Shown here piece by piece: positions 19,664 through 23,582 of a DNA stretch of 35,892 nucleotides. This DNA is from an uncultured Candidatus Saccharibacteria bacterium (GTDB lineage: Bacteria > Patescibacteriota > Saccharimonadia > Saccharimonadales > Saccharimonadaceae): NCBI GenBank assembly GCA_947302355.1, contig CAMYUU010000008.1, positions 1 to 35,892 on the forward strand, read 5' to 3'. The translations under genes and the position numbers were made by a program. The notes beneath the pieces are model-generated. The model ran no database searches. It had not been told where the DNA came from and worked only from the letters and a program-made list of their open reading frames with translations. The stretch's first letter is position 1; every line of letters starts with the position of its first letter.

Positions 19664-20092
19664 ATGGCAGAAAAGAAAGTAATTGGAAATCTTAAATTAC
19701 GTATTCCAGCAGGACGCGCTACGGCGGGTCCTCCAGTAGGTTCTACTCTTGGTCAATGGGGTCTAAATATGATGGATTTCATCAATCCATTTAATGAGGC
19801 TACCAAAGGTTTAATGGGAAAGAATGTAATTGTGCACATTCGTGTTTTTGATGATCGTTCATTCGACTGGAAGAGCCTAGGTCAGCCAGTGGATGATTTG
19901 ATTCGTGAAGCCATCAAGATTGATAAGGGTTCAGGTAAGCCTAATGTTGATAAGGTCGGTAAGATTACCAAAGCTCAACTTCAGGAAATCGCCGAGAAGA
20001 AGATGGACCAGCTTAACGCTGTCGATATCGAAGGTGCAATTAAAATTGTTGCTGGCACTGCACGTTCAATGGGCGTTGAAGTCGTAGAGTAA
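19664..20092 (+). CDS. rplK: 50S ribosomal protein L11
   Basis: 142 residues, the normal L11 length. It begins with the RNA-independent N-terminal domain containing LRIPAGRATAGPPVGSTLGQWG and the proline-rich PPVG hinge, and ends with the 23S rRNA-binding domain (GKITKAQLQEIAEKKMDQLNA, IKIVAGTARSMGVEV). L11 forms the GTPase-associated centre with L10 and L12. In most bacteria rplA follows at once. Here a terminator and two unrelated genes separate rplK from rplA. Confidence 0.97.
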   Translation: MAEKKVIGNLKLRIPAGRATAGPPVGSTLGQWGLNMMDFINPFNEATKGLMGKNVIVHIRVFDDRSFDWKSLGQPVDDLIREAIKIDKGSGKPNVDKVGKITKAQLQEIAEKKMDQLNAVDIEGAIKIVAGTARSMGVEVVE

Positions 20093-20103
20093 ATATTCTT
20101 TTC

Positions 20104-20134
20104 AAAAAAATACTCCGCATGGGGGTATTTTTTT
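20104..20134 (+). terminator. Rho-independent terminator after rplK
   Basis: AAAAAAATACTCC at 20104-20116 pairs (one G-T pair) with GGGGTATTTTTTT at 20122-20134. It isolates rplK from the downstream orphan gene. Confidence 0.8.
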
Positions 20135-20145
20135 GATGGCTACGC

Positions 20146-20173
20146 TTGACCTATCCCGTATTTATGTTATAAT
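20146..20173 (+). promoter_or_regulatory. Promoter TTGACC - 16 bp - TATAAT with TG extension, for orphan gene A
   Basis: -35 TTGACC 20146-20151, TG at 20165-20166 and TATAAT 20168-20173. Both boxes are near-consensus. The predicted start of transcription, about 20180, would exclude the GTG at 20179. Confidence 0.7.
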
Positions 20174-20211
20174 TAGGGGTGGCAATATTGGTCCTAGAGA
20201 ATAGGGAAAAC

Positions 20212-20670
20212 ATGACCAAAATGCGGAACATTCCCAAAAAGGAAGTGCAGATCGACCAGCTGATTATCTTGTGGTACGAATACCATGAGTCCTACAGCGC
20301 GTTGTACCGGGAGTATTTGGAGCTGATTAGTCAGGAGGCTAATCAAAATAATGGCAAGAAGCGTCCAGCGAAGCTCATGACTAGTGAGTATCGTCCCAGT
20401 TGGGCTACTTTTCTCTTGAAAGAGAGCGAAGCTGAGGCTAGGTCTTTCCTTGCTGGTAAGCGTAGTAATACTATTTCTACGATTGTTAGGGATGGCCATG
20501 CTGGCAGCATCGAATTCTTAATTCAGAATCTTCGCTCCGTTTTGCCGGATTGGCATTGGTGGAATAAAGCTAGCTCTAAAGGTAGCACTAACTTTAGCCC
20601 TATCCCATTTTCCCGTAGTGGGGGCCGTCATTCTAGTTCCTATTCACGCGTGACCTGGCTCTCCGATTAA
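20212..20670 (+). CDS. Uncharacterised protein A in the rplK-rplA gap
   Basis: 152 residues from the ATG at 20212, which has AGGGA upstream; an in-frame GTG at 20179 would add 11 residues but sits only 5 nt from the -10 box. I do not recognise the family. It is soluble, with no signal peptide or helix of membrane type. The N-terminal half looks helical (LIILWYEYHESYSALYREYL), the tail is Ser/Gly/Trp-rich (WHWWNKASSKGSTN). A motif YRPSWATFL...A...L followed by a helical stretch resembles YPKWARFL...A...L in the gene at 20885, so the two may be paralogues. It has its own promoter and terminator and lies where bacteria normally have rplK-rplA directly joined. Recent acquisition or a clade-specific gene are both possible. 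Confidence 0.65.
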   Translation: MTKMRNIPKKEVQIDQLIILWYEYHESYSALYREYLELISQEANQNNGKKRPAKLMTSEYRPSWATFLLKESEAEARSFLAGKRSNTISTIVRDGHAGSIEFLIQNLRSVLPDWHWWNKASSKGSTNFSPIPFSRSGGRHSSSYSRVTWLSD

Positions 20671-20689
20671 TCTGTCACCTTTTTGTTGA

Positions 20690-20713
20690 GCCCCGCCTAA
20701 CTTCAGGCGGGGC
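20690..20713 (+). terminator. GC-rich hairpin after orphan gene A
   Basis: GCCCCGCCT (20690-20698) and AGGCGGGGC (20705-20713) form a perfect 9-bp stem with a 6-nt loop. The T-rich stretch comes about 12 nt later (to 20735), so termination may be less standard. Confidence 0.6.
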
Positions 20714-20752
20714 GCTTCGTTATAGTTATTTTTTGTCCGACAATTCCACTTA

Positions 20753-20781
20753 TTGACAAAGCGTCAAATCATTGGTATAAT
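20753..20781 (+). promoter_or_regulatory. Perfect consensus promoter for orphan gene B
   Basis: TTGACA at 20753-20758, exactly 17 bp, then TATAAT at 20776-20781 with the TG extension at 20773-20774. This is the closest match to the sigma-70 ideal in the window, better than that of any ribosomal-protein gene here. Confidence 0.85.
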
Positions 20782-20787
20782 ATAATG

Positions 20788-20884
20788 ACTTGATTAAAAA
20801 TCAAGCTTAAGTACATTTCGGATTCGGAGCAAGAAAGGAGGCAAAAATCTATCAGCCGTAAAGGCCACGAGGAAAGGAGCAAAA
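20788..20884 (+). promoter_or_regulatory. About 97-nt leader with 5' hairpin and two Shine-Dalgarno sites
   Basis: CTTGAT/ATCAAG with a 5-nt loop lies at about 20789-20805, at the likely 5' end of the transcript. AAAGGAGG at 20834-20841 is a full SD without a standard start codon behind it; only ATC codons follow, the nearer opening a four-codon frame that ends at TAA 20859-20861. AAAGGAG at 20873-20879 serves the GTG at 20885. Confidence 0.5.
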
Positions 20885-21181
20885 GTGGCCAAGAAGCAAA
20901 GACTGTCCTCCACAGAGGTCAGCAGTGCACGCACGACCCTACTGGCGTATTACAACGCCTATGGGCCGAAGTATCGATTCCTTCTCGAGGCCCTTCCTAA
21001 GGGTGTGAGTAGTAAGGAATTTTACCCCAAGTGGGCCCGTTTTCTTAGGGCTCCCAGTAGGGGTAAAGCCCAGATGATACTTCGCGACATGGATAAGCAG
21101 ACTTTGAAGTTTGCATACAACCATGCCGATGAGATCGTCAAGCTGATCGCTGATCTCGAAGCGGCGGTTCAGTCTTCCTAG
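20885..21181 (+). CDS. Uncharacterised small protein B in the rplK-rplA gap
   Basis: 98 residues from GTG at 20885, 5 nt after AAAGGAG. Not recognised. Basic head (MAKKQRLSSTE), then mostly helical sequence: LLAYYNAYGPKYRFLLEALP, FYPKWARFLRA and a C-terminal amphipathic stretch FAYNHADEIVKLIADLEAAV. No signal peptide or membrane helix. The P-x-W-A-x-F-L block and the flanking helix pattern are shared with the protein at 20212. By hand count 62 of its first 110 bases are G or C, against 48 of the first 110 in rplK, so its composition is richer than its neighbour's. The consensus promoter and strong SD predict abundant expression. A DNA-, RNA- or ribosome-associated role would be a guess. Confidence 0.7.
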   Translation: MAKKQRLSSTEVSSARTTLLAYYNAYGPKYRFLLEALPKGVSSKEFYPKWARFLRAPSRGKAQMILRDMDKQTLKFAYNHADEIVKLIADLEAAVQSS

Positions 21182-21213
21182 CCTGCCATTTCGGCTGCTC
21201 CGTTTCACCCTTG

Positions 21214-21240
21214 GGGCGAGCGCTCGTTGCTCGCCCTTTT
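21214..21240 (+). terminator. Rho-independent terminator after orphan gene B
   Basis: GGGCGAGC (21214-21221) and GCTCGCCC (21229-21236) with a 7-nt loop, then TTTT. Typical GC-rich form. Confidence 0.8.
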
Positions 21241-21263
21241 CGTTTGCAAAAAATAGTTGTTTT

Positions 21264-21272
21264 TGTTATAAT
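21264..21272 (+). promoter_or_regulatory. Extended -10 (TGT-TATAAT) for rplA
   Basis: TG 21264-21265 and TATAAT 21267-21272. rplA starts 65 nt later, so a leader of about 57 nt is made. Confidence 0.65.
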
Positions 21273-21291: not shown

Positions 21292-21322
21292 TGGTTGGGA
21301 GAGCTTTTGCTCGTTATTACCA
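21292..21322 (+). promoter_or_regulatory. Leader hairpin of rplA, candidate L1 autoregulatory site
   Basis: TGGT (21292-21295) pairs with ACCA (21319-21322), and GAGC (21301-21304) with GCTC (21309-21312), leaving internal loops with a GGGA segment. L1 represses its own mRNA in many bacteria through a hairpin with loops like its 23S site. The match here is by shape only. Confidence 0.3.
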
Positions 21323-21336
21323 CAGAAAGGATTAAA

Positions 21337-22239
21337 ATGGCCGAAGAAGAGGTCAAAGCTACTGAAAATGTAGAAGTTAATGAAACAAAAGTTAAAGAAC
21401 AGGAGACTTTTGCTAAGTCCGGCAAAAAGTCTAAAAAACATATAGAAGAAGTCAAGGCCGAAGAAGAACGCCAAGCTCGTAAACTTGAGCGCAAAGCGGA
21501 AGAAGCTGCCGTTAAGCCAAAAGGGGCTGCTCCTATCACGCGTCCAAAGATTGAGCGTCGAGGCAAAAAGTATCAGGAAATGGCTAAGTTGGTAGAGAAG
21601 GGTAAGGTCTATGGCCTTAAAGATGCTATCGATCTCGCCATCAAGACTAACCCTACTAAGTTTGATGCTAGCGTTGAAATTCACGCACGTTTAAGTGTGG
21701 ATCCACGTCAGGCTGATCAAAATATCCGCACCACAATTGTATTGCCTAATGGTAATGGTAAGAGTGTGCGCGTAGCTGTATTTGCGCCACTAGATGTGTG
21801 TAAAACTGCTAAGGCAGCTGGCGCTGATATTGCCGAAGACGAAGAGTTCCTTAAGCGCCTTGAAAAAGGAACTATCGACTTCGATGTCTTAATCTCCACC
21901 CCACAATACATGCCAAAGCTTGGTAAATTTGCTCGTTTGCTTGGCCCGAAAGGCTTGATGCCGAATCCAAAGGCTGGTACCGTTACTATGGACGTCGAGA
22001 AGGCTGTAAAAGAATCTAAGGCTGGTAAGGTTGAATACCGCGTAGACAAGCAATCAATCGTTCATATCGGTGTAGGTAAAATCTCATTTGGGACCGACAA
22101 ATTGCTTGAGAACGCCAACACCTTCTTTGAGAGCCTAAAGGCCCAAAAGCCTGCCTCTCTTAAGGGTTCCTATGTGAAGTCGGTATTTATTACTACCACG
22201 ATGGGGCCTTCCATAGCTGTGGAAAATCTGTATAATTAA
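21337..22239 (+). CDS. rplA: 50S ribosomal protein L1 with a long charged N-terminal extension
   Basis: 300 residues from the ATG at 21337, supported by AGAAAGG upstream; typical L1 has about 230. Residues 1-75 are an added Lys/Glu-rich segment with no Cys or Trp (KAEEERQARKLERKAEEAAV looks like coiled coil). The L1 core begins at about RRGKKYQEMAKLV and continues with FDASVEIHARLSVDPRQADQ, RTTIVLPNGNGKS, LGPKGLMPNPKAGTVT and IGVGKISFG. L1 binds 23S rRNA and forms the mobile stalk at the E site. The last codons, LYN-stop, contain the -10 box of the next gene. Confidence 0.95.
   Translation: MAEEEVKATENVEVNETKVKEQETFAKSGKKSKKHIEEVKAEEERQARKLERKAEEAAVKPKGAAPITRPKIERRGKKYQEMAKLVEKGKVYGLKDAIDLAIKTNPTKFDASVEIHARLSVDPRQADQNIRTTIVLPNGNGKSVRVAVFAPLDVCKTAKAAGADIAEDEEFLKRLEKGTIDFDVLISTPQYMPKLGKFARLLGPKGLMPNPKAGTVTMDVEKAVKESKAGKVEYRVDKQSIVHIGVGKISFGTDKLLENANTFFESLKAQKPASLKGSYVKSVFITTTMGPSIAVENLYN
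22229..22236 (+). promoter_or_regulatory. TG-TATAAT promoter embedded in the last codons of rplA
   Basis: TATAAT at 22231-22236 is the Tyr-Asn codon pair before the rplA stop. Six nt separate it from the ATG at 22243, the spacing seen at other leaderless starts here. Confidence 0.5.
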
Positions 22240-22921: not shown

Positions 22922-22930
22922 TGATATAAT
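22922..22930 (+). promoter_or_regulatory. Extended -10 (TGA-TATAAT) of the rplJL operon
   Basis: TG 22922-22923, TATAAT 22925-22930. Transcription should start at about 22937, giving a leader of about 124 nt. Confidence 0.65.
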
Positions 22931-22937
22931 TGGAGCA

Positions 22938-23010
22938 GTTACCAAAGACAGTGGCGGAGAAATCTTAATTATGCCACCGAGGAAATTCTTATAATTTTAT
23001 TTGGTGACGC
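22938..23010 (+). promoter_or_regulatory. Ribosomal protein L10 leader (autoregulatory RNA)
   Basis: The conserved core AAAGACAGTGGCGGAG ... GCCACCGAGG is present, with GTGGC (22951-22955) pairing with GCCAC (22973-22977). A closing helix GTTACCAAA (22938-22946)/TTTGGTGAC (23000-23008) brackets it, as in the L10 leader family. The L10-L12 complex binds this RNA and represses rplJL when in excess. Confidence 0.85.
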
Positions 23011-23060
23011 TACTTAACAATTAGCTAACTAAATATTAACAATAACCAAAGGAACTTTTT

Positions 23061-23582
23061 ATGGCAATTACAAAGCAAAAAAAGAACGAATTGGTTGCTG
23101 ATTTAACTGAGCTATTATCAAATGCGAAGACTACTGTATACGCAAAGTATCAGGGTTTAACCGTAGCAGAGCTTCAGGAGCTTCGTAAAGCCGCTAGAGA
23201 GGCCGGAGTCAAGATAAAGGTAGTTAAGAATCGTCTTGTACGTGTAGCGATGAATCAAATCGCCGTTTACAAGGACACCGACACTACTGGCTTGACTGGT
23301 CAATTACTCTATGCTGTTTCTAGCGAAGATGAAGTTGCTCCAGCAAAGGTTTTAGCTAATTTTGCTAAGACTCATGATGCGCTAACTCTTCTTGGAGGTT
23401 TTAGCGATCTCGGGAACAACCTATCTGAAGAAGATGTAAAATCCCTTGCTGCAATGCCAAGCAAGAACGAGCTTATCGCTCAGGTTGTGGCACAGCTTTT
23501 GTCGCCAGCTACCGACAGCATTTCCGCTCTTTCCGGTGGACTATCTAGCATAGTTTCTGGACTAGAAGCACGCGCAAGTTAA
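23061..23582 (+). CDS. rplJ: 50S ribosomal protein L10
   Basis: 173 residues, normal length. It begins MAITKQKKNELVADLTELL and carries the rRNA-binding core VYAKYQGLTVAELQELRKAAREAG and KVVKNRLVRVA. The C-terminal helix that binds L12 dimers is about residues 140-170. L10 anchors the L12 stalk that recruits translation factors. AAAGGAAC precedes the ATG. Preceded by its leader RNA and followed after 36 nt by rplL, the standard arrangement. Confidence 0.97.
   Translation: MAITKQKKNELVADLTELLSNAKTTVYAKYQGLTVAELQELRKAAREAGVKIKVVKNRLVRVAMNQIAVYKDTDTTGLTGQLLYAVSSEDEVAPAKVLANFAKTHDALTLLGGFSDLGNNLSEEDVKSLAAMPSKNELIAQVVAQLLSPATDSISALSGGLSSIVSGLEARAS

Follow-up and report, generated by a model that had tools for sequence, protein, structure and literature searches.

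In the window, by which we mean the whole 35,892-nucleotide stretch of DNA analyzed here, two small genes, ORF1 and ORF2, separate rplK from rplA. We think it likely that the two arose as tandem paralogues within a protein family restricted to the genus and at home in the rplK-rplA junction, and that this junction serves as an exchangeable cassette site. The organism is a ruminant-gut Saccharibacterium, and our literature search found no paper on this locus.

Genes and signals between rplK and rplA

The original prediction was that rplK and rplA are separated by two ORFs of 152 and 98 residues, and that each ORF has a near-consensus promoter and a GC-rich terminator of its own. Our analysis confirmed the coordinates of both ORFs, the hexamer matches of the two promoter-like sites and the two terminator stems (Table 1). 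All four genes, rplK, ORF1, ORF2 and rplA, lie on one strand. When we scored the flanks of family ORFs of at least 90 aa (n = 50), a promoter-like site was found upstream of 45, compared with 9 in shuffled flanks, and a terminator-like stem was found downstream of 49, compared with 7 in shuffled flanks. The prediction had also taken rplK-rplA to be a strongly conserved pair. This holds less well here, as the length of the junction in the genus runs from a few bases up to ∼2.6 kb. Rfam gave no above-threshold match at the rplK-rplA junction. The ORF2 leader (20786-20890) is ∼100 nt long and has a hairpin after the promoter plus an unused SD-like site.

Table 1 Features of the rplK-rplA junction, in window positions
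Feature	Coordinates	Strand	Description	Evidence
rplK (uL11)	19664..20092	+	Left edge of variable junction	Pfam L11 N and C domains
rplK terminator	20098..20136	+	Stem ATACTCC/GGGGTAT, then T-run	Read from sequence
ORF1 promoter (promoter-like)	20146..20173	+	TTGACC-16-TATAAT with TG extension	11/12 match
ORF1	20212..20670	+	ATG start, 152 aa	Family member by held-out HMM
ORF1 terminator hairpin	20690..20717	+	Stem 20690-20713, GC-rich	
ORF2 promoter (promoter-like)	20753..20781	+	TTGACA-17-TATAAT	12/12, perfect match
ORF2 start hairpin (predicted)	20862..20890	+	GGCCAC...GTGGCC; SD in loop, GTG start in 3′ arm	RNAfold
ORF2	20885..21181	+	GTG start, 98 aa	ORF1 paralogue without C-terminal tail
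ORF2 terminator hairpin	21213..21242	+	Stem 21213-21237, GC-rich	
rplA promoter (own)	21243..21272	+	TTTGCA/TTGCAA ... TATAAT	
rplA leader (conserved, candidate L1 site)	21296..21330	+	TGGGAG-stem-GYTANNACCACAGAAAGG; overlaps SD	
rplA (uL1)	21337..22239	+	Right edge of variable junction	Pfam Ribosomal_L1 9.1e-60

ORF1 and ORF2 as members of one family

Upon direct alignment of ORF1 with ORF2 (SW), we obtained a score of 78, against 27±5 for shuffled sequences, and none of 1000 shuffles reached it. Weak matches to ORF1 were present in the genus, and in other genomes many of them came immediately after rplK. A family profile was built from the junction ORFs of 100 fetched rplK loci, and at E<1e-3 it matched junction ORFs only among the 4690 ORFs of the rplK loci. 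We then left out ORF1, ORF2 and their nearest relative, genome G010, which carries a broken copy of ORF1 and a 99-aa second ORF. The resulting held-out profile found ORF1 at E=4.5e-12 and ORF2 at E=8e-4, with the next unrelated ORF at ∼1, and no shuffled sequence reached the score of either. The P-x-W-A-x-F-L block that was predicted to be shared occurs in the two ORFs as RPSWATFL and YPKWARFL and is conserved family-wide, with P-x-I-x-F-L in other members. Judged by alignment and held-out profile, ORF1 and ORF2 are paralogues of common ancestry, which bears out the duplication that had been proposed.

The history of the pair is less simple. ORF2 resembles ORF1 and the ORF1-like proteins encoded in G077 and G167 more than it resembles the second gene of either genome. 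The pair in the window need not, then, share a duplication with the pairs of G077, G167 and G060. No pairwise homology was detectable between ORF2 and these two second genes or the second ORF of G010; hence, we do not claim a single ancestral tandem pair. A family locus usually holds one gene.

Distribution in the genus

Across the 174 genomes of the genus, rplK was found in 165 and a convincing family member in 54 (54-55 counting G010). Every family hit lies within ∼1 kb of rplK, in all 54 convincing genomes. No family member turned up outside the genus among the genera sampled, 143 in the order and 247 in the phylum. Weak off-site profile matches, named by eye as the N-terminus of phosphate acetyltransferase, RecF and a glycosyltransferase, were set aside as chance. 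The named relatives are Candidatus Saccharibacteria, mostly from the ruminant gut, and include Nanosyncoccus alces. Scans for relatives on phages and viral contigs, the latter using single family members, found none. The description of the two genes as orphans stands at the level of the genus and falls for the single genome, given the relatives at the same place in 54-55 genomes.

A recently acquired two-gene system of foreign origin had also been suggested. ORF2 is indeed rich in G+C (0.52, GC3 0.61) relative to the window average of 0.41, and the hand count of 62 G+C in its first 110 bases, against 48 in rplK, proved exact. However, ORF1 has 51 in its first 110 bases and the GC of the family ranges widely, which makes this count weak evidence for transfer. 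The family is spread clade-wide in the genus and mostly tracks the core tree, most loci hold a single gene, and relatives are lacking from the phylum genera sampled. Recent acquisition is thus very unlikely.

Selection and divergence

Close pairs with dS <1 gave dN/dS values of 0.11-0.17. This implies that the family consists of real genes under purifying selection in such pairs, and it bears on the idea that the ORFs are spurious readings of an intergenic spacer. The family matches no database family and its copies are broken in four genomes (G010, G100, G126 and G176), as one would expect of such readings, yet Shine-Dalgarno sites precede most family starts, the helical models are fairly confident and the profile matches are significant. 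We give spurious ORFs next to no chance in the window, and for the family as a whole the selection on protein sequence seen in these substitution rates refutes them.

Family proteins are 14-87% identical where core identity is 94-98%, and their divergence reaches ∼20-30% identity while concatenated L11, L1 and NusG stay at or above 84%. By this comparison, the family is diverging fast.

Turnover at the junction

Comparison among loci marks the rplK-rplA junction as a turnover site. In sister species, the junction may contain a family gene or a decayed copy of one, may be taken up by an unrelated nucleosidase, or may be empty, and presence or absence changes at least 20 times on the nusG+L11+L1 tree. 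For instance, L041 was compared with L039 and L057 at a flank dS of 0.19-0.28 (0.28 for L039 and L041). The family gene is truncated or broken in L039 and L057, L041 has a nucleoside phosphorylase-like gene in its place, and DNA identity breaks only from the rplK stop to the rplA promoter. In a second set with a flank dS of 0.5-0.7, the family proteins of L098 and L107 (flank dS 0.58) are 30% identical and the site in L108 is empty. L100 and L101, in contrast, show gradual divergence. Phosphatidate cytidylyltransferase-like genes (named by eye) occupy the junction in a separate clade. Remnants of the family were looked for in the empty genomes and none were found, and no integrase or mobile element was seen at the junction.

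Core-gene clades largely stay intact in the family tree. Since this tree mostly matches the core tree, swapping is not the main mode, and the two trees indicate mainly vertical descent, plus loss and occasional replacement. We infer recombination from between-species patterns in which most dS values are saturated, so that fast divergence can mimic replacement.

Several further arrangements were observed. A nucleoside phosphorylase or MTA nucleosidase-like gene (by eye) lies between rplK and rplA in L041, L043, L046, L068 and L069, and the junction of L118 is filled by one 659-aa ORF of no assigned kind. In ∼15 of 101 loci, rplK has the opposite orientation to nusG and rplA (L091-L096, L102-L104, L106, L109, L113, L117, L119 and L131). 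The inversion takes the family gene along in L093, L094 and L104 and involves rplK alone in L103 and L106.

These observations bear on whether the proteins act in translation or on the ribosome, binding L11, L1 or rRNA, and need co-location with rplK and rplA. The loss, decay or nucleosidase replacement in sister species speaks against this, as do the promoter and terminator signals that the genes have of their own, and a protein so divergent in comparison with L11, L1 and NusG is unlike a partner of a conserved surface. In its favor, the family gene always adjoins rplK, even an inverted one (L093, L103, L106), and the proteins are basic with basic tails. The ease with which the family is lost weighs against an important ribosomal role, and we consider such a requirement for co-location unlikely.

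A candidate L1 site ahead of rplA

The rplA leader, whose stem covaries, is conserved in 83 of 101 loci, and exact matches to its pattern occur also in other genera of the same taxonomic family. In Actinobacteria and Cyanobacteria, a bulged stem-loop before rplA is the site of L1 self-repression (PMC10931766). Like that uL1 leader, the one in the window is a short irregular stem-loop with an internal bulge just before rplA. It differs in that Rfam has no match to it, and it would account for the insulation of rplA only and not for the orphan family. From its sequence and position, the rplA leader is probably an L1 autoregulatory site that overlaps the SD. If so, rplA would be independent of the rplK transcript and the junction would be free to vary.

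We propose the following for the exchangeable cassette site that we favor. With its own promoter and an L1-type leader, rplA would form a separate transcription unit, which probably makes the junction permissive. A cassette running from promoter to terminator could then sit there, or be exchanged, without harm to ribosomal gene expression. Occasionally, cassettes may be swapped between species by homologous recombination via the conserved flanks, for example during natural transformation. Natural transformation with homologous recombination has been documented in cultured Saccharibacteria (PMC10633639).

Predicted structure and possible role

The ORF1 model is all-helical (pLDDT 84) with a disordered basic tail. 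The ORF2 model is also all-helical (pLDDT 80) and has the same order of helices, an agreement between models that rest on nearly one shared alignment and are not independent. Family members are basic (median pI 9.0) and have no membrane stretch, and the tail is positively charged in 41 of 45 tailed members. Fold searches gave a best Foldseek E of 3.3 and, for the helical model, a best VIA-align Z of 6.3, and no known fold stood out. A match to an immunity protein at Z 6 was discarded, since such scores are common for helical bundles. The absence of a known family agreed with what had been predicted: no Pfam, NCBIfam, PHROG or PADLOC match recurred, and the HMM searches gave only scattered ones in 1-2 of 46 members. 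SAP, ANTH, V-SNARE, Cullin-binding, SecE, Cas10, Inclusion membrane protein A and others were discarded as confined to 1-2 members or sub-threshold. The helical models offer no hint of a function.

Our guess as to the role is a tentative one, namely a dispensable, soluble, basic helical cytosolic protein that may bind nucleic acid or the ribosome. Such binding is suggested only by the basic charge and tail of the proteins and by the constant position of their genes. Fast change of the protein might be driven by species-specific pressure, such as phage or the host bacterium, and a role against phage or in competition comes close behind.

That second role corresponds to a distinct explanation in which the family provides phage defence, counter-defence or inter-bacterial competition, with a cassette site and diversification in an arms race. 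Fast divergence, presence and absence, and replacement at a fixed site would all fit. Nonetheless, PADLOC and PHROG gave no recurring match, relatives on phages and viral contigs were not found, and dN/dS in close pairs is far below 1. The mostly solitary genes have no partner of the kind that a toxin-antitoxin pair calls for; we reject such a pair because, in addition, paired genes belong to the same family and the ORFs in the window each have their own promoter. We lean against a defence or competition gene. A bolder version, in which the family keeps to one junction genus-wide, uses the ribosomal genes as homology arms for trade between species and serves conflict with phage or the host bacterium, strikes us as improbable.

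Comparison with known systems

As in integration hotspots and cassette exchange through flanking genes, the junction has variable cargo between core genes, with breakpoints in or at these genes. It differs from hotspots in its lack of a visible integrase or mobile element, in its position within the rplK-rplA pair and in its cargo, as a rule one small gene from just one family. Taxonomically restricted orphan genes likewise have no detectable relatives beyond a genus, change fast and are frequently lost. Unlike them, the family in the window keeps to one junction in dozens of species and is coherent, with a predicted fold.

The family is new as an unlabelled Saccharibacteria protein family with a predicted fold. 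Its junction offers a natural experiment in gene turnover, in which sister species can be compared at one fixed position that is occupied in some by a family gene, in others by a decayed copy or an unrelated enzyme, and in still others is empty. The arrangement also suggests that rplK and rplA, often taken as an invariant operon, are transcribed as separate units in this genus, a point of consequence for annotation based on operons. Farther along the window, an L10 leader RNA (RF00557) lies at 22924-23070, before rplJ, and the gap between a membrane-protein gene and rplJ is likewise highly variable in the genus.
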